Assembly (NCBI GenBank): GCA_031271755.1
Contig: JAISVB010000056.1
Span: 1 to 64,000 of the forward strand
Direction of reading: 5' to 3'
From: Culturomica sp.
GTDB taxonomy: Bacteria; Bacteroidota; Bacteroidia; Bacteroidales; Marinifilaceae
Length of the DNA: 64,000 nucleotides
Part shown: positions 13,401 through 58,089 of the stretch, piece after piece
Numbering within the stretch: position 1 is the first letter of the stretch
How the letters are laid out: every line of letters begins with the position of its first letter
Made by a program: the position numbers and the translations under genes
The notes under the pieces: model-generated
What the model saw: only the letters and a program-made list of their open reading frames with translations
What the model was told of the DNA's origin: nothing
Databases searched by the model: none

Positions 13401-13459
13401 TTCGCACTGTTTTGGGAGAAGCGATAGTGGAGGGCAATGTCCGAAAGGTTGTTGTTTGG

Positions 13460-13750
13460 GTGGAGGTGGGAGTGAGTTTTTCGGAACTTCCGGACGCTCC
13501 GGTGTATTGTCCTTCGGGAACCATGTCTCCACAACGGTTCTCTAATTTTTTCCCGTTCGCTGGAATCCTAACCGCCTTCTTCCCTTCGGTCAGTCGGCGC
13601 CCCTGCGGGGAACTCGGATTCCGGGCACTCCGGAAAGAAAGGAAAACGATCGTTGTTCCCGACAACCGTTCTGAAGGATCAATACACCTGCGCTCTGCAG
13701 AGGTGATTGTAAAGTTGAGCTATAAAAAAGAGTTTCGCTTTTGTATTTTG
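13460..13750. repeat. Tandem intergenic repeat, copy 1
   Basis: A 291-base unit beginning GTGGAGGTGGGAGTGAG. From about 13500 to 13690 it forms a long imperfect palindrome: outer arms CGGTGTATTGTCCTTCGGGA and its complement-like GAAGGATCAATACACCTGCG, inner arms, and an apical hairpin CCCCTGCGGGG. Copy 2 follows directly with scattered substitutions. The element resembles a structured intergenic repeat; I cannot tell whether it is transcribed. Confidence 0.85.
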
Positions 13751-14024
13751 GTGGAGGTAGGAGTGAGTTTTTCTGGACTTCCGGACGCTCCGGTGTATTG
13801 TCCTTCGGGAACCCTGTCTCCGCAACGGTTCTCTAATTTCTTTCCGTTCGCTGGAATCCTAACCGCCTTCTTCCCTCCGGTCAGTCGGCGCTCCTGCGGG
13901 GAGCTCGGATTCCGGACGCTCCGGACAGAAAAGAGAACGATCGTTGCTCCCAACAACCGTTCCGAAGGATCAATACACCTGCGCTCTGCAGAGGTGATTG
14001 CAACGTTTCGCTTTTGTGTTTGAT
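13751..14024. repeat. Tandem intergenic repeat, copy 2
   Basis: Aligns to copy 1 at an offset of 291 bases, lacking about 17 bases near its right end. The outer arms are 13791-13833 and 13933-13981, and the apical stem is GCTCC-TGCGG-GGAGC near 13889-13904. Many differences from copy 1 fall in the loops or swap one pair for another, which would fit selection for the fold; this impression is by eye. Confidence 0.85.
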
Positions 14025-50331: not shown

Positions 50332-51147
50332 ATGAAAAAGATTTTAACCTGTATTTTAGGGGGGCTCCTGTTGGCCGCCGCTTCTGTTTCAGCCGCTCCG
50401 TACAAGTATGTGGTTTTTACCACCAATCTGGGTGACATTAAATTAAAAGTATATACGGATACGCCGCTGCACTCCGAGAATTTCCTGAAACTGGCCAAAG
50501 AAGGCCATTACAACGGCCTGCTCTTTCACCGGGTGATCAAGGATTTTATGGTACAGGGCGGCTCTTCCGACTCCCGGAACGCCGAAAAAGGCGCCATGTT
50601 GGGAACCGGGGGCATCGACTACACCATCGAGGCGGAGATCAATCCGCTGCATTTCCACAAAAAAGGCGCTTTGGCAGCCGCCCGGCAGGGGGATGATGTG
50701 AACCCGGAAAAACGCTCCTCCGGAGAACAATTCTACATTGTTCAGGGGACTGTATTGGAAGAGAAAGAGTTGGACATAATGGAACAGCAACGGCTGATGC
50801 AAACCAGGAACCAATACGGGAAGGAACTATTCCAACCGCGGGAGTCGGAGTACCGGGAATTCCTCCGCAGTGGCAACCGGGAAGCGGCCGATGAACTGAT
50901 CCGTTCGATCGACGCGGAAATCGCTGAAAAGTTTGAGGGATACAACGCGCACAAATTCTCTCCGGAAGCGCGCGCCGTGTACATCACCGTCGGCGGCACG
51001 CCGTTTTTGGACGGAAAATACACCGTATTCGGAGAAGTAGTCGAAGGCATGGAGATCATCGACAACATCGCCGCACAGGAAACAGACGGCAACGACCGCC
51101 CGCTGGAAGACATCGTCATCCTTGAAACCCGCCTGAAAAGAAGATAA
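50332..51147 (+). CDS. Cyclophilin-type peptidyl-prolyl isomerase, secreted paralogue
   Basis: A 271-residue periplasmic protein with a cleavable signal peptide (MKKILTCILGGLLLAAASVS, then AAPYK). Same architecture as its neighbour: HSENFLKLAKEGHYNGLLFH, RVIKDFMVQGG, RSSGEQFYIVQG, the charged helical insertion (about 143-215), and GKYTVFGEVVEGMEIIDNIA. Two bases separate it from the first gene, so it is a tandem duplicate in one operon. The difference is the anchor: lipid for the first, soluble for this one. Confidence 0.93.
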   Translation: MKKILTCILGGLLLAAASVSAAPYKYVVFTTNLGDIKLKVYTDTPLHSENFLKLAKEGHYNGLLFHRVIKDFMVQGGSSDSRNAEKGAMLGTGGIDYTIEAEINPLHFHKKGALAAARQGDDVNPEKRSSGEQFYIVQGTVLEEKELDIMEQQRLMQTRNQYGKELFQPRESEYREFLRSGNREAADELIRSIDAEIAEKFEGYNAHKFSPEARAVYITVGGTPFLDGKYTVFGEVVEGMEIIDNIAAQETDGNDRPLEDIVILETRLKRR

Positions 51148-51201
51148 AAACTCAATCAGCCATCCCTGATAATTTCCTGTTGTTGTGTAACATTAGAAGC
51201 A

Positions 51202-51326
51202 AAGAGGTTTCCTGTTTTTAATAAGGAAACCTCTTCTTAACCTTTAAACACAGTTTACTTTTTCAAAAACATACCATGAATCAGTTTATATTCCTTCTGT
51301 TCAGTCTTGTGCTGTCGGGTGCGGCA
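51202..51326 (+). repeat. Duplicated hairpin-leader-signal-peptide cassette, copy 1
   Basis: Begins with a perfect 12-bp inverted repeat (AAGAGGTTTCCT 51202-51213, AGGAAACCTCTT 51224-51235), followed by the leader and the first 17 codons of the secreted protein. From 51224 to 51326 (103 bases) it is identical to 51842-51944; the similarity with copies 2 and 3 extends left to about 51160-51180. The hairpin could end the cyclophilin transcript or act in the leader. Confidence 0.9.
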
Positions 51327-51743
51327 TATTCGCAAACTACCGACCTCACAAAACTCTCCCAAGAGGAACGCGAGAAGCATTTATTTGAAATTGCCACGGA
51401 AGCGATGAAAAAATATGCACCGTCCTATTATAGAGAGGATCTAAAGCCTGTAATAGGATATGCGGGAACCTATACTACGGATAAACAGGATAAGAACTAT
51501 GGCAGGAATTCGTATCGAATTGATTTTCTGTTTGATATAGAAAAGGACAAGAGAGAAGGGGATGACAACATGTATGGAGGGTCAGTTGGAATATTTGAGG
51601 ATACAGGTAAAGTTAATTATCTCCGTCCGACAGGCTGGTGGACTCTATTTTATATAGATGATGAGATTGAAACTCGTAACGGCACTCACAAAGTTGCTCC
51701 CCCAATGAAGGTTCCGGAAAATCCATACAAGAATCTGAAATAA
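51276..51743 (+). CDS. Small secreted protein of unknown function, cassette member 1
   Basis: A 155-residue product whose signal peptide (MNQFIFLLFSLVLSGAAYSQ) is identical, except near the cleavage site, to that of the next gene. The mature part (LTKLSQEEREKHLFEIATEA, ending PENPYKNLK) is unrelated to it and I do not recognise it. It looks soluble, acidic in places, with aromatic residues near the end (GWWTLFYID). AT-rich codons unlike the housekeeping neighbours suggest later acquisition. It is likely exported to the periplasm or beyond. Confidence 0.7.
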   Translation: MNQFIFLLFSLVLSGAAYSQTTDLTKLSQEEREKHLFEIATEAMKKYAPSYYREDLKPVIGYAGTYTTDKQDKNYGRNSYRIDFLFDIEKDKREGDDNMYGGSVGIFEDTGKVNYLRPTGWWTLFYIDDEIETRNGTHKVAPPMKVPENPYKNLK

Positions 51744-51796
51744 TGCAGGAGAAGCAAGAAAATCGTTAATGAAGTAGTACATCCTTAACAGTCATC

Positions 51797-51944
51797 TGTT
51801 GTATGTAAAATTCGAAATAAAGAGGTTTCCTGACTAAAAATAGGAAACCTCTTCTTAACCTTTAAACACAGTTTACTTTTTCAAAAACATACCATGAATC
51901 AGTTTATATTCCTTCTGTTCAGTCTTGTGCTGTCGGGTGCGGCA
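51797..51944 (+). repeat. Duplicated hairpin-leader-signal-peptide cassette, copy 2
   Basis: Hairpin arms 51821-51832 and 51842-51853, then the leader and first 17 codons identical to copy 1 over 103 bases. Only the hairpin loop and the sequence to its left differ. Confidence 0.9.
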
Positions 51945-52469
51945 CATGCACAACAATCAATGGAGAAAATTGAAGTTTCAGTCAATGGTAAGACCATGGT
52001 AAAAAGCAATGGAATAATAGCGAATCGACTAAATCCATCTACCTTGTCTACAAGACGTACGGAAACCCGTTCTCCTGCGGAACTCCTTGAAATATATGAC
52101 AAAATGTATCTTCTCAACACGGATCAAGAGCTAAAAAAAGCTCTGAAAAAAGCATTTCCAGTAGAAATACTTGATAAATGTGGAACAGAGAGGATGTTAT
52201 TACATCTTGATGTGAGTCCCAATGGGTACGTATATAGCGTTACTTTTGGAGTAAAAACAGATTCTCCCCTCTACGATATAGATATGCAGATCTATTCGGA
52301 TTTGGAAGACATTATTAAGTCTGTGTTCAGGTTTAAAATTCCTGCTACATCGATCTTATCCTATTCACCTACTCTACCTTTTTCCCTTTCTCGATTAACG
52401 GACGATGTATCGTTGTTTCCCCCGGCTGCCTACCGGGAAAGAGGAGCAGCCTACAGAGCAACCAACTAA
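51894..52469 (+). CDS. Small secreted protein of unknown function, cassette member 2
   Basis: A 191-residue protein with the shared signal peptide (cleavage about AHAQ). The mature domain contains DQELKKALKKAFPVEILDK, then MLLHLDVSPNGYVYSVTFGV and a final FRFKIPA strand. It looks like a distant relative of the product at 53104-53580 (EQLNEAIKNIVKNIL, then VMLYFNYKGEIEYISFVL), so two members of one family may lie here. The C-terminal 40 residues are less regular (SPTLPFSLSRL). Function unknown. A likely terminator follows. Confidence 0.7.
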   Translation: MNQFIFLLFSLVLSGAAHAQQSMEKIEVSVNGKTMVKSNGIIANRLNPSTLSTRRTETRSPAELLEIYDKMYLLNTDQELKKALKKAFPVEILDKCGTERMLLHLDVSPNGYVYSVTFGVKTDSPLYDIDMQIYSDLEDIIKSVFRFKIPATSILSYSPTLPFSLSRLTDDVSLFPPAAYRERGAAYRATN

Positions 52470-52494
52470 TGTAAAGATGTACTTTGAAATACCT

Positions 52495-52527
52495 GAAACT
52501 ATCCCTATTGCCGGGATAGTTTCTTTT
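52495..52527 (+). terminator. Rho-independent terminator
   Basis: Perfect 11-bp stem GAAACTATCCC / GGGATAGTTTC with a seven-base loop, followed by TTTT. It closes the transcript of the second cassette gene. Confidence 0.75.
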
Positions 52528-52573
52528 CATACCTTTATACCCGTTACATCTGCTACACAGTCACTACATAAGA

Positions 52574-53096
52574 ATGAAGTTTTTGAGTAAAAAAGTTATC
52601 GACAGGATTTGGGCGGCAGTCTTTACCATAACTGCCTTAGCCCATTCCTGTTCGAGCCAGATGAACGAGATGTGGCTGGAAGGAATAGATTGTTTTCCGA
52701 ATAGTCTGCTTTTTGTCTCTCCCGAAGTTGGATTTGCCGGAGGACATGTTTGGGCGGAAGACTCCCCGCTGGGGCAGGCCAAAAGCTGGTACCAGGAAGC
52801 CAAAGGGCGCGAAGAGGTACTCCTCTCCCCACCGGGCACCCGGAGCGGAACATTGTTGTGTCCTTTATGGCGAGAATCCTTGTTTTTATATTACAGCAAA
52901 TCAGAATATAGACTATTTTGATCTCTATGATAGTTTAGTAAATGAAATTTATATTACTAAAAAATTACCTGACAATTTTCTTTCTCTATATCAAACACTT
53001 GGGATAGGCTGGAATGATCCTAATTACTCGAAAGAAAGAATAGGGATATTTAACCCGAATATAGATCCTGTATTAATTCAGAATTTTATTAAGTAA
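52574..53096 (+). pseudogene. Probable broken small lipoprotein gene with frameshift and composite base composition
   Basis: Two overlapping frames share this stretch. The first starts at 52574 (MKFLSKKVIDRIWAAVFTIT, lipobox AHSC) and is closed by a stop at 52919-52921. The second is open from 52713 to 53096 and ends in plausible AT-rich coding sequence (IDYFDLYDSLVNEIYITKKL, ending VLIQNFIK). A single shift near 52850-52900 would join them. Bases from about 52700 to 52860 are GC-rich while the rest is AT-rich, so a foreign piece may have been inserted. I do not recognise the protein. Confidence 0.45.
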
Positions 53097-53103
53097 ACAT
53101 GAT

Positions 53104-53580
53104 ATGAAACGATTGATATTTTTTATAATATTGTTTAATTTTTCTTTCCATGGATTGGCCAAAGAAAACAACTATTTTAAATACGATACTACAGAAAAAT
53201 TTATACATGCACATCCACTATTCGAACCGCATGATCCAAGAAAAGAAGAGGCTGATGTTTTTATTATAAAAAATTACGAACAGCTAAATGAAGCGATAAA
53301 GAACATTGTAAAAAATATTTTATCCACAAACGAAATCCAACAATTGAACAAAGAGAATTACTCTACAGTTATGCTGTATTTTAATTATAAAGGAGAAATA
53401 GAATACATATCGTTTGTATTGAGTAAAAGTGATATCAAATTATTTACAGACCAAAAACTATATAAGTTATATCAACTGATTAAGGCACATGGTGTCAATA
53501 TGAATTGGGGAGAGCAATTACCTCAATTCCCGAAAAAACGACTTCGTATGGGTTTTTGGTTGTTTAAATCAATGATTTAA
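53104..53580 (+). CDS. Small secreted protein of unknown function
   Basis: A 158-residue product with signal peptide MKRLIFFIILFNFSFHGLA and a mature domain with two helices and a beta meander (EQLNEAIKNIVKNIL, VMLYFNYKGEIEYISFVL) that resembles the cassette-2 protein. The gene is very AT-rich (roughly 30 percent GC by eye) and starts seven bases after the preceding broken frame. No catalytic motif is visible. The neighbouring fragment of an amidase-like effector makes an immunity or effector-associated role conceivable; that is speculation. Confidence 0.65.
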   Translation: MKRLIFFIILFNFSFHGLAKENNYFKYDTTEKFIHAHPLFEPHDPRKEEADVFIIKNYEQLNEAIKNIVKNILSTNEIQQLNKENYSTVMLYFNYKGEIEYISFVLSKSDIKLFTDQKLYKLYQLIKAHGVNMNWGEQLPQFPKKRLRMGFWLFKSMI

Positions 53581-53807
53581 TTAACTTTCTCTTTAGGGTT
53601 GTTGATTTAGTTGATTACTTGAATCGTGAATATGGACAATATAGTAACTCCTTCAATAATGCACTTTCAGGCAAAAAAGCAATAATATATCAAACAGGTT
53701 GTGGATGGGATGATGCCACTGGTCATGTGGATATATGGAATGGAAAAGAGGCTCTTGATTATAAATATCCGGAGTGTGATAATACGTATATTTGGGAATT
53801 AAAATAA
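53568..53807 (+). pseudogene. C-terminal fragment resembling a Tae4-family amidase effector
   Basis: The frame is open after a stop at 53565-53567 but has no credible start; only about 79 codons remain, overlapping the end of the preceding gene. The translation contains KKAIIYQTGCGWDDATGHVD, then IWNGKEALDY, and ends IWELK. This resembles the end of type VI secretion amidase effectors of the Tae4 family, in which the His of GH and a following Asp belong to the Cys-His-Asp catalytic set and the peptide cross-links of peptidoglycan are cut. The half with the Cys nucleophile is missing. The assignment is from motif memory, not a search. Confidence 0.5.
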
Positions 53808-53816
53808 TAGATCACC

Positions 53817-54452
53817 ATGAAAATTTTAATAAGTATTTTAACGATAATTTTTGTTTTTACTATCTCATTACAAGCCCAAAGCAGTGATGCATTAATCCGG
53901 TTTAGTTTATCTCTTGATATGGAACCTTATGTAATGGGGTATAAGGATGCCTCCGGACAAATCGTAATTCCCACAGATAAATATCGGTATTGTTTTACGG
54001 AGGTATTTGATAAAATTGCCATTATTGGACACAGAGCACCGGGCAGCATCGAAAACAAATACTATGCGATAGACCGGGCGGAGAATATTTTATTTGAAGT
54101 AGCTGCTGGGGATAACAGTCCGGATGAGGTACAAAATGGACTTTTTCGCATCATTGTGGACGGCAAAATGGGTTTTGCCAACATGAATGGTGATATTGTA
54201 ATCCAACCTGCATTTTCAACAGTCTTACCTTTTTCGGAGGGTTTGGCCGCTTTCTGTATTGGAGGGATGAAAGTACAAGAAAAGGAACATTCTATTAGAA
54301 GAGGTGGAAAGTGGGGCTTTGTTGACACAACCGGACAGATTGTGATTCCCGCACAATTTGACAGAGTCAGGTCTTTTAATGATGGCCGGACAACTGTAGA
54401 AAAGAGTGGAACATACTATAAAATCGACAAAAAAGGTAATGTAATTAATTAA
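53817..54452 (+). CDS. Secreted WG-repeat protein
   Basis: A 211-residue exported protein (signal peptide MKILISILTIIFVFTISLQA) with at least two WG repeats: KMGFANMNGDIVIQPAFSTV and KWGFVDTTGQIVIPAQFDRV, each with the usual G-F-x-x-x-x-G-x-I-V-I-x-P-x-F spacing, and a poorer one near residues 40-60 (GYKDASGQIVIPTDKYRY). WG repeats form beta-rich modules often found in large surface proteins; short forms occur near toxin and effector loci. It follows the Tae4-like fragment by nine bases. Role unknown. Confidence 0.85.
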   Translation: MKILISILTIIFVFTISLQAQSSDALIRFSLSLDMEPYVMGYKDASGQIVIPTDKYRYCFTEVFDKIAIIGHRAPGSIENKYYAIDRAENILFEVAAGDNSPDEVQNGLFRIIVDGKMGFANMNGDIVIQPAFSTVLPFSEGLAAFCIGGMKVQEKEHSIRRGGKWGFVDTTGQIVIPAQFDRVRSFNDGRTTVEKSGTYYKIDKKGNVIN

Positions 54453-54458
54453 ATGGAA

Positions 54459-54518
54459 CATCTGATTAAGAGTCTGTTGTTGTATTGTGGCATTAGAAGT
54501 AAAGAGGTTCTCTGTTTT
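54459..54518 (+). repeat. Third, degenerate copy of the intergenic cassette repeat
   Basis: CTGTTGTTGTATTGTGG, CATTAGAAGTAAAGAGGTT and a CTCTGTTTTT end match the left part of copy 1 (CTGTTGTTGTGTAACATTAG and on). The right hairpin arm, leader and signal peptide are absent. Like copies 1 and 2 it begins just after a stop codon. Confidence 0.75.
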
Positions 54519-54613
54519 TGGGGCACCTCCTGACCAAGTCTTGACTTCGGAGCTTTCATTCGTGGTATTCGCCGGTAAAAAAGAGAATATCTTTACAACA
54601 GGAACGATTAGTT

Positions 54614-54657
54614 GAAATTCCTAAAACTTTCAAGAAATTAGAAGTTTTAGGAATTTC
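54614..54657. repeat. Perfect 16-bp inverted repeat
   Basis: GAAATTCCTAAAACTT (54614-54629) is the exact complement-reverse of AAGTTTTAGGAATTTC (54642-54657), with a 12-base loop. There is no T run of note after it on either strand, so a simple terminator is not obvious. It lies at the left side of a decayed ATPase gene. Confidence 0.85.
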
Positions 54658-54659
54658 GC

Positions 54660-54912
54660 ATATCTTTATATCGCGAATTTCAAAGATAACTTGTATAGGA
54701 AATATCGCTAAGATCCTCATAGCAAACGGCAAAAAAATTGACAATAAAACCGTATCGAAATACATAAAAACGCTCGAACGCGAACTCGCGCCCTTTGCCA
54801 AAATTTCCGACTTTAATGAGCGGCTGCTGATTACAATGGATTACGAAACAGGCAGCCGCAACGGAATAAAACAGGTCAATGCGATTGATTGGCTTTTAAA
54901 TATTGAAAAATA
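54660..54912 (+). pseudogene. Remnant of an AAA ATPase of the DUF4143 type
   Basis: Reading back from the TAA at 54910-54912, the frame gives KTVSKYIKTLERELAPFAK and, at the end, NGIKQVNAIDWLLNIEK with LLITMDYETG between. This is the characteristic C-terminus of the Bacteroidota P-loop ATPases with DUF4143 (switch to a wHTH-like KTVSKYIK stretch, then a GIK-x-x-N-x-x-DWLL end). The P-loop and ATPase core are missing: upstream lie only an inverted repeat and intergenic sequence. So it is a deleted gene, about 80 codons of which remain. Confidence 0.6.
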
Positions 54913-54990
54913 ATTCTCATACGATCTCATTTTATGACATTTAGCCTCATTATAGATTCGTGATAAATGGAATTAAGTAAATACAGACTG

Positions 54991-55419
54991 ATGAAGACAA
55001 CATTATTACTCATTTTTATTGGAGCGTTTTTTGTGAGTGGGAAGTCACAATCGTTTACTACTCAAGATTCTTTGATGGCATTTAAATGGGAATTATATAC
55101 AGATGCCCATTTTGAAAATGATATTTCTGTCGTTTTATCCTATAATTCAACGATAGAAACTGAGACGACTGTTTATGATGATGGAGAAACAGAAGTAAAT
55201 AACTCCTCCTATTACCTCAGCTATTCCATTGATTTGCAGTTTGATACGAATAAGATCGGAACTTCCAAAAATGGAAGATATCTTGTTATTTGCAGAATGG
55301 ATAAAAAAGCAGTATGTTATAAAATTGCCGCATTGACAAATCAGAAATTAATTCTCATACATGTAGAAAGTCCGAATGCTGTGACAGAATGGATCGCCAG
55401 AGAGAAATATGGGTCATGA
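54991..55419 (+). CDS. Small secreted protein of unknown function
   Basis: A 142-residue product. The ATG at 54991 gives the signal peptide MKTTLLLIFIGAFFVSGKSQ; an ATG at 54967 would add eight hydrophilic residues. The mature part has alternating beta-like segments (AHFENDISVVLSYNSTIETE, YYLSYSIDLQF, YLVICRMDKKAVCYKIAAL) and two Cys (RYLVICRM, AVCYK) that may pair. Composition is AT-rich. It is the last gene of the accessory island, convergent with mutS 42 bases away. Function unknown. Confidence 0.6.
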   Translation: MKTTLLLIFIGAFFVSGKSQSFTTQDSLMAFKWELYTDAHFENDISVVLSYNSTIETETTVYDDGETEVNNSSYYLSYSIDLQFDTNKIGTSKNGRYLVICRMDKKAVCYKIAALTNQKLILIHVESPNAVTEWIAREKYGS

Positions 55420-55461
55420 AATCGTTTTACTTACGAGAACGGAGAGCAGGTCCGGTGGTGA

Positions 55462-58089
55462 TCACAACCCCGAGATCTTTTTGATCCCGTTCAGTTTGTT
55501 CAAGGCTTCGATGGGGGTCAGACTGTTGATGTCCAGCCCTTTGATCTCGTCCCGGATCTGTATCAGCACGGGGTCTTCCAACTGGAAAAAACTGAGCTGA
55601 TACCCTTCGCGCTCCGCGGCTAATTTTTCCACCGGCTTGTGTATCTCCTTCTGTACTCCTTCGCCCGGATCCCGCTTCCCTTCCAACTGCTTCAGGATCT
55701 CATCCGCCCGGCGGATGACGGAGTGGGGAAGCCCGGCCATGCGCCCCACCTGGATCCCGAACGAATGGTTGGAGCCTCCCGGCGCTAATTTGCGCAGGAA
55801 GACCACTTTGTTCTCCACCTCTTTGACGGAGACATTGTAATTCCGGATCTTTTTGAACGAATGCTCCATCTCGTTCAATTCGTGGTAATGAGTAGCGAAC
55901 AGCGTTTTCGCTTTGAACTTCGGATGCTCGTGCAGGTACTCCACGATCGCCCAGGCGATGGAGATGCCGTCGTAAGTGGAGGTGCCCCGTCCCAGTTCGT
56001 CGAAAAGAATGAGGCTCCGGTCGGAGATGTTATTCAGGATGTTGGCGGCCTCGTTCATTTCCACCATAAAAGTAGATTCCCCCTGCGAGATGTTGTCCGA
56101 AGCACCGACCCGCGTAAAAACCTTGTCCACATACCCGATTTTGGCCGATTCCGCGGGCACGAAACAACCGGCCTGCGCCAGGATCACGATCAGGGCGGTT
56201 TGCCGGAGAAGCGCGGATTTCCCGGACATGTTCGGGCCGGTGATGACGATGATCTGCTGCCGGGTATTATCCAGGTACACGTCGTTGGCAATGTACGGTT
56301 CGCCGGGAGGCAGTTGCCGTTCAATGACAGGATGCCGCCCCGCTTTGATCTCGATGACCTCCCCGTCGTTGATCTCCGGGCGGTTGTACCGGTAGCGCGA
56401 GGCAGCTTCGGCAAACGCCATGAGCGTATCCACGGAAGCAATGATCCGGGCGTTATTTTGGATATTCCGGATGTGCGAAGATGCTTCAATAAGTAAATTA
56501 GTGTAAATATTCGTTTCGATCTCCAGCATGCGGTCTTCAGCGCCTAAGATCTTCTCTTCGTACTCTTTAAGCTCCGGCGTGATGTACCGTTCGGCATTTA
56601 CAAGGGTCTGTTTCCGGATCCAGGTATCCGGCGCCTTCTCCCTGTGGGTTTTGGTGACTTCGATGTAGTACCCGAACACGTTGTTGAAACCGATCTTGAG
56701 GGAGGGAATGCCGGTGGCTTCGCTTTCGCGTTGCTGCATCTGCTGCAACAGCTCTTTTCCGTTGGAGGAGATCTCCCGCAGCTCGTCCAATTCCGGGTGG
56801 ATCCCTGCCGCGATCACCCCTCCTTTGTTCAACTGGTTGGAGGGATTCTCCAGGATCTCCCTGTCGATCTTTTCGTACAGCGCCCGGCACTCCTCCAGCG
56901 CCTCCGTATACCGGCAAAGAATGGAAGAACCTGTTTTCCGGCAAACCGATTTCAATGCCGGAATAGCGCCCAGAGCCACTTTGAGCTGCACCATTTCGCG
57001 GGGGGTGATCCGCCCCACCGCCACTTTGGAGGCCAACCGTTCCAGGTCGCCGATGCTGCGCAGCAACAACTCCGCCTCCAACCGGATCTCCTCCTGCCGC
57101 AGAAAGGTCTCCACCATCTCCAACCGCTCTTCGATCTGCTCCGGTGATTTCAGCGGCATGCCGATCCAGCGGCGCAACATACGGCCCCCCATCGGGGTAA
57201 CCGTGTGGTCGATGATATCGACTAAGGATTTTCCCTCTTCACAGGAGGAGTGCAGCAATTCCAGATTGCGAAGAGTGAATCTGTCTAACAGCATACAGGA
57301 CGCTTCGTCTATGCGGGAGATGGCGGTGATGTGGGAAACCAGGTCGTGCTTCGTCTGCTCTAAGTAATTCAGGACGGCTCCCGCAGCCGAAACAGCCAGC
57401 GGCATCTGTTCAATGCCGAACCCCTTCAGCGAATTGACTTCAAAATGTTTTTTCAGCTTTTCCCGGGCGGCCTCGCCGTCAAAAAACCACCCCTCGATGG
57501 GATAAAGGTAATACCGGTTGCCGAACAGTTCGTGGAAACGTTTCTCCTCTCCCCGGGGGTAGATGACCTCTTTGGGCTGGAAACTGTTCAGCAGCTTGTC
57601 GATGGTGGAACAACTCCCCTCGGTAGCCAGGAACTCCCCCGTAGAGAGATCCAGCAGGGAGATCGCCGCCTCCTCTTTTTGGAAATAAACGGCGGCTAAG
57701 AACAGGTTGCTTTTGGCGTCGGTGGCGTATTCCCCGTACGAAACGCCGGGGGTAACCAGTTCGATCACGCCCCTTTTTACTAATTTTTTGGTCTGCCGGG
57801 GGTCTTCCAACTGCTCGCATATCGCTACCCGCTGTCCCGCCCGGACCAATTTGGGCAGGTAATTGTCCAGCGCGTGGTGGGGAAAACCGGCCAGCCGGAC
57901 GTCGCCGGGAGATCCGCTCGCCCTTTTGGTCAGTGTAATACCGAGGATCTTCGAAGTGATCACCGCATCTTCTCCGAAAGTTTCGTAAAAATCCCCCATG
58001 CGGTAGAGCATGATCGCATCGGGATACTTTGCCTTCATGGCATAATATTGTTGCATCAACGGTGTTTCTTCCCCTTTTTTGGCAGCCAT
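55462..58089 (-). CDS. mutS: DNA mismatch repair protein MutS
   Basis: An 875-residue mismatch sensor. The N-terminal mismatch-binding motif [11 protein letters not shown] (about 31-41) supplies the wedge Phe; connector, lever and clamp domains follow, and the ATPase has Walker [21 protein letters not shown] (about 620-639), the Walker B region [16 protein letters not shown], and ATHYHELN. Length is that of MutS1. A minus-strand -7 box TATCTTTG lies at 58148-58155, 59 bases upstream of the start. Confidence 0.98.

Follow-up and report, generated by a model that had tools for sequence, protein, structure and literature searches.

Unrelated predicted immunity proteins behind an identical leader and signal peptide in a putative decayed polyimmunity island of Culturomica sp.

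We analyzed a window of 64,000 nucleotides of Culturomica sp. (order Bacteroidales; GenBank assembly GCA_031271755.1, 2.36 Mb; contig JAISVB010000056.1, forward strand). In this window, a 4.27-kb island lies between a peptidyl-prolyl isomerase gene (positions 50332-51147) and mutS (55462-58089, minus strand). GC content is 28 to 43% within the island and 51 to 56% in the flanking genes. The genes of the island are co-oriented, and the first two, here called gene 1 and gene 2, each begin within a copy of the same repeat. The island contains the following features:

51157..55427, no strand assigned: the island
51177..51223, plus strand: repeat copy 1, older part, comprising the segment ahead of the hairpin plus its 5' arm and loop; common to copy 3, and matching copy 2 at 74% identity
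51202..51235, plus strand: hairpin copy 1, terminator-like, RNA fold of approximately -18 kcal/mol with flanks, 55 nt past the isomerase stop codon
51224..51326, plus strand: identical block, first copy, spanning the 3' arm, the leader, and 17 codons; 103/103 against 51842-51944
51276..51743, plus strand: gene 1, exported protein of 155 aa, predicted immunity protein from a family whose members occur directly 3' of JAB-like lipoproteins
51796..51841, plus strand: repeat copy 2, older part, from alignment to copies 1 and 3
51820..51853, plus strand: hairpin copy 2, 77 nt past the gene 1 stop codon
51842..51944, plus strand: identical block, copy 2, an exact match to 51224-51326
51894..52469, plus strand: gene 2, exported protein of 191 aa, tentatively predicted immunity protein, weakly DUF5043-like
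52574..52861, plus strand: lipoprotein-like N-terminal fragment with a lipobox-like ALAHSC (against the toxin N-terminal profile, 6 of 2000 shuffles scored as high)
52845..53096, plus strand: open C-terminal fragment without its own start, by translation in frame with a TTG-started ORF (52713-53096)
53104..53580, plus strand: DUF5043-like exported protein of 158 aa, a predicted immunity protein (against the DUF5043 profile, none of 2000 shuffles scored as high)
53619..53807, plus strand: Tae4-type amidase effector, C-terminal fragment (PF14113, E = 1.3e-7, covering positions 67-114 of the 125 in the profile)
53817..54452, plus strand: exported WG-repeat protein (PF14903, E = 5.6e-26)
54478..54519, plus strand: repeat copy 3, partial, 35/42 against 51178-51219 (200 dinucleotide shuffles reached at most 29/42)
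54967..55419, plus strand: exported-looking 150-aa protein with no family in sequence and family searches

The island is absent from a sister species (G058), whose genome aligns at 87% up to approximately position 51164 and again from 55427, with approximately 280 bp in between. This gap holds the remnant of a TPR/O-antigen-ligase gene (32 bits, a score reached by 0 of 2000 shuffles). The same gene type follows toxin-like lipoprotein operons at two other loci (L034 and L091), in both cases after a lipoprotein gene and its small neighbor; therefore, the remnant suggests that the locus between the isomerase gene and mutS formerly carried a lipoprotein toxin-like operon. A plasmid search did not find the island on plasmids. 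Within the island, positions 54701-54913 of the window resemble by eye the end of a DUF4143-type ATPase, with no Pfam match above the cutoff. Elsewhere in the window, a tandem direct repeat (13455-14007, 262 nt, 92% identical, spacing 291) sits inside an ORF (13412-14023) with no family above the cutoff.

Gene 1 matched no family in Pfam or NCBIfam. Relatives of gene 1 were detected in 11 of the 59 genomes of the taxonomic family, source genome counted, and are also present in other families; the gene 1 profile matched in only 3 of 393 order genomes. At five loci (L029, L032, L034, L036, and L038) and at one in another family (L074), a relative starts no more than approximately 25 nt past a lipoprotein gene. 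The lipoproteins upstream of gene 1 relatives have 548 to 642 residues and the tail motif HxH...PSxxD, which we read on the motif alone as JAB-like. Genes of the gene 1 type also form tandem arrays (seven in L029, three in L071, and two each in L030 and L036), and the copies in L029 are mosaic, such that the nearest relative shifts along the gene. Adjacency to lipoproteins and tandem arrays together give the layout of a toxin plus immunity gene; thus, the gene 1 family looks like predicted immunity proteins of JAB-like lipoproteins. While its relatives lie directly 3' of such lipoproteins in six genomes, gene 1 itself is an orphan, and we infer that it has an immunity function and acts in the periplasm. 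In the L029 array (L029:5836-9558), signal peptides of two types alternate (spacing 542/523), and the mature parts are mosaic. In another genome (G235, L097:763-2019), a gene-1-type domain occurs inside a 418-residue exported protein, beside another long ORF.

Gene 2 scored 14.6 bits against Pfam DUF5043 (E = 0.03, below the 25-bit cutoff), and in a comparison with a DUF5043 profile its score was reached by 1 of 2000 shuffles; both weakly suggest, as a suggestion only, that gene 2 may belong to DUF5043. Among the 393 order genomes, no relatives of gene 2 were detected at E <= 0.001 besides the signal-peptide part of gene 1. The toxin-like lipoproteins have common N-termini and different tails, and the tails pair with particular neighbors: JAB-like tails with gene-1-type genes (L034) and HExxH-like tails with DUF5043 genes (L091). 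One genome from another family of the order (G132) carries this second pairing, with a DUF5043 gene after the HExxH-like-tail lipoprotein in L091 and a tail plus DUF5043 neighbor in L092 and L093. At L077, DUF5043 and gene-1-type genes adjoin. On contig 50 of the source genome (L089:5206-6499), a clear DUF5043 gene is followed by a relative of L033:5671 (E = 7e-12, small set), and genes of this type make up a third family of small secreted proteins found in this company.

Within the island, immunity can be assigned by family to gene 1 and to the gene at 53104 and weakly to gene 2, and it cannot be assigned to the WG-repeat gene or the gene at 54967. Between the genes lie the Tae4 fragment and the two other fragments, of which the lipoprotein-like one (52574..52861) is possibly the start of a toxin lipoprotein, the score being suggestive only, and the open one (52845..53096), which matched no family, is perhaps a displaced toxin tip. 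Given the Tae4 fragment, the DUF5043-like genes, and the context of the gene 1 family, we interpret the island as a small, partly decayed polyimmunity locus whose genes encode exported antidotes. The original prediction spoke of secreted proteins in general, which is too broad, since gene 1 belongs to a toxin-linked, immunity-looking family. An alternative is that these are ordinary secreted proteins without any tie to toxins and that the neighborhood of the gene 1 relatives is coincidental. This would fit the lack of a Pfam or NCBIfam family for gene 1 and the few order genomes that its profile matched; however, it is made unlikely by the position of the relatives, directly 3' of toxin-like lipoproteins in six genomes from two families, by their tandem amplification, and by the toxin fragments that the island contains.

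In a pairwise comparison within the window, the longest exact match was between 51224-51326 and 51842-51944 (103 nt, offset 618). As originally predicted, these 103 bases cover half of the hairpin (its 3' arm), the whole untranslated leader, and 17 signal-peptide codons. The alignable repeat is longer (51177-51335 against 51796-51953, 90.6% identity over 159 columns). Upstream of the block, the two copies match at 19/25 positions in the pre-hairpin segment and at 16/22 in the 5' arm and loop. Downstream, 6/9 bases match in the codons just past the block (YSQ in gene 1, HAQ in gene 2), which reach the predicted signal-peptidase site (AYSQ and AHAQ, respectively), and homology ends there. The mature parts are 32% identical, which is background, and 203 of 500 shuffles reach their alignment score; the expectation that the proteins are unrelated past the signal peptide was therefore borne out.

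The partial copy that was expected after the WG-repeat gene is also present (54478-54519), and it is older than the 103-base block. It too folds as a hairpin (GAGGU.CUCUG / UGGGG.ACCUC), with a 3' arm that differs from those of the other copies. In each copy, the hairpin starts approximately 50 to 80 nt past a stop codon, the position of a terminator, and no Bacteroidetes promoter (TAnnTTTG) was seen by eye in the 40-nt leader; for the latter reason, we take the hairpin as a candidate terminator-like element. Hairpin copy 2 matches copy 1 at 31/34 positions when inverted and at 28/34 directly, an apparent loop inversion that could be due to chance.

Identity is 74% (35/47 columns) upstream of the block and 103/103 inside it. 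At the divergence of the flank, the expectation for an identical run of 103 bases is approximately 10^-13, and selection on a leader normally does not keep every synonymous site. The simplest reading is therefore that the block would be a younger recombination or gene-conversion tract laid over an older repeated intergenic element, with the hairpin loop as its putative end on one side and the signal-peptide boundary on the other. Most likely, the tract arose by ordinary homologous recombination without a dedicated mechanism. The direction and order of the recombination are inferences of ours. Because the identical block sits between a 74% flank and unrelated cargo, the pair is not one duplication of uniform age. 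We therefore regard it as quite improbable that gene 1 was simply duplicated in tandem and that one copy then diverged fast in its mature part. Although the 618-bp repeat spacing corresponds to the length of a gene together with an intergenic region, the mature parts score like shuffles and differ in length (155 versus 191 aa), the identical bases beside the diverged flank contradict a single age, and gene 2 leans toward another family, DUF5043.

We consider it probable that genes 1 and 2 are exported immunity genes, lying in the same orientation within a small polyimmunity island that is heterogeneous and decayed, and that the front of these genes, from hairpin to signal peptide, was made identical by recombination or gene conversion. 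This reading builds on several observations: a repeat with parts of two ages, mature parts that are unrelated, the absence of the island in the sister species, and the adjacency of the gene 1 family to JAB-like lipoproteins. The shared signal peptide would export both proteins to the periplasm, where each would bind a single incoming toxin, in the case of gene 1 a lipoprotein toxin with a JAB tail and in the case of gene 2 a different, less certain one. Between the genes of the island would stand an old repeated element with a terminator-like hairpin at its end. Later homologous recombination or gene conversion between two such genes, from the hairpin to the signal-peptide cleavage site, would have left both with an identical leader and signal peptide, and the mature parts that were kept or brought in would differ. 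Several results count against the immunity island: it holds no complete toxin, the match of gene 2 to DUF5043 is weak, the JAB-like tail has no Pfam or NCBIfam match, the gene 1 AF2 model (pLDDT 72) matched no solved fold in a fold search, the single-sequence structure model of gene 2 (pLDDT 36) is unusable, and repeat copy 3 lacks the leader and signal-peptide part.

By analogy, the closest described system is the polyimmunity locus, of which heterogeneous and homogeneous forms are described (Zhang et al. 2012, PMC3482391). As in the available text of that source, the island would consist of short, closely spaced genes in one orientation that belong to unrelated predicted immunity families, it has no complete toxin, it varies between relatives, and gene 1 relatives form homogeneous arrays (L029, L071). 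In contrast to the loci presented there, whose immunity proteins are mostly cytoplasmic and belong to listed Imm families, the proteins here have signal peptides, gene 1 has no Pfam model, and toxin fragments lie between the genes; nor does that text mention one front common to unrelated cargos. The same text describes Tox-JAB-1/Imm65, in which a JAB-type toxin of Bacteroidetes is likewise paired with an immunity protein that is exported; however, Imm65 is itself a lipoprotein and bears a YxC motif, whereas the signal peptide of gene 1 is of the non-lipidated type and gene 1 matched nothing in Pfam, and Tox-JAB-1 is carried on RHS repeats rather than on lipoproteins as in the loci of the gene 1 relatives. 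The gene order at those loci may also be likened to SitA/SitI of myxobacteria, presented in the available part of PMC5562445 as a lipoprotein toxin with a variable C-terminal domain followed by its cognate immunity gene. Exchange of mature parts behind a common signal peptide is not described in the available portions of PMC3482391, PMC12247911, and PMC5562445, the literature search being non-exhaustive.

The original prediction also proposed that the front might serve as a general mechanism for diversifying secreted proteins, by recombination that places unrelated cargo behind one front. The recombination is upheld by the 74% flank, the 103 of 103 identical bases, and the background-level cargo; the generality of this front is not. 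The source genome has two full front copies and one partial copy. BLAST did not find the front in any of the other 58 family genomes, and in the 393 order genomes it returned only three weak matches (26 to 41 nt) outside the source genome. The exact core pattern was absent from approximately 85,000 species genomes, in a collection with one genome per species, and from viral contigs. With no convincing copy beyond the source genome, a general diversifying mechanism built on this front is not supported. A mobile repeat family was rejected, as the source genome has only two hairpin copies.

These searches also bear on a dedicated cassette system, in which the hairpin-leader-signal block would be a recombinase site for swapping mature parts, as in integrons or the arrays of recombinase-associated acquired interbacterial defence (rAID), which are defined by a recombinase. 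According to the available text of PMC12247911, rAID arrays carry a tyrosine recombinase and conserved intergenic motifs. The island resembles them in its order (Bacteroidales), its short co-oriented genes, and its repeated intergenic sequence, with three repeats of one kind (one partial), and it contains the Tae4 fragment; the likeness is in the presence of a repeat. However, none of the eight tyrosine-recombinase (PF00589) matches of the genome is on this contig, no SUKH genes were detected, the common block reaches into coding sequence rather than being purely intergenic, and the front was found nowhere else with other cargo. We regard such a system as having little chance of being correct.

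A second case of front and cargo parting comes from genome G132, where an orphan array (L090:365-2146) holds three DUF5043 genes, each matching the neighbor of a toxin tail in L092, L093, or L091. The mature parts of L090_2 and the L093 gene are mostly 93 to 100% identical (70 to 75% in two 40-column windows), whereas their fronts, the signal-peptide regions, are approximately 45 to 47% identical. By sequence comparison, this pair is nearly the same cargo behind different fronts, and would thus be the mirror image of genes 1 and 2. The break falls at the same signal-peptide boundary, and the case is independent, in another family of the order, so the idea of front and cargo exchange is not dead. 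That exported Bacteroidales immunity genes are routinely reassembled at the signal-peptide/mature junction, with one front receiving successive unrelated antidotes and the same antidote acquiring different fronts, is a doubtful generalization at this point.

Overall, what was proposed as a general cargo-swapping front comes down to a single certain case, with one independent parallel (L090_2/L093). Our data indicate two exported predicted immunity families, the gene 1 family, which has no Pfam or NCBIfam model, and DUF5043, together with a predicted Bacteroidales family of lipoprotein toxins with exchangeable tails. The locus also illustrates concretely how a store of orphan immunity genes may gain a new antidote that is already equipped for export.
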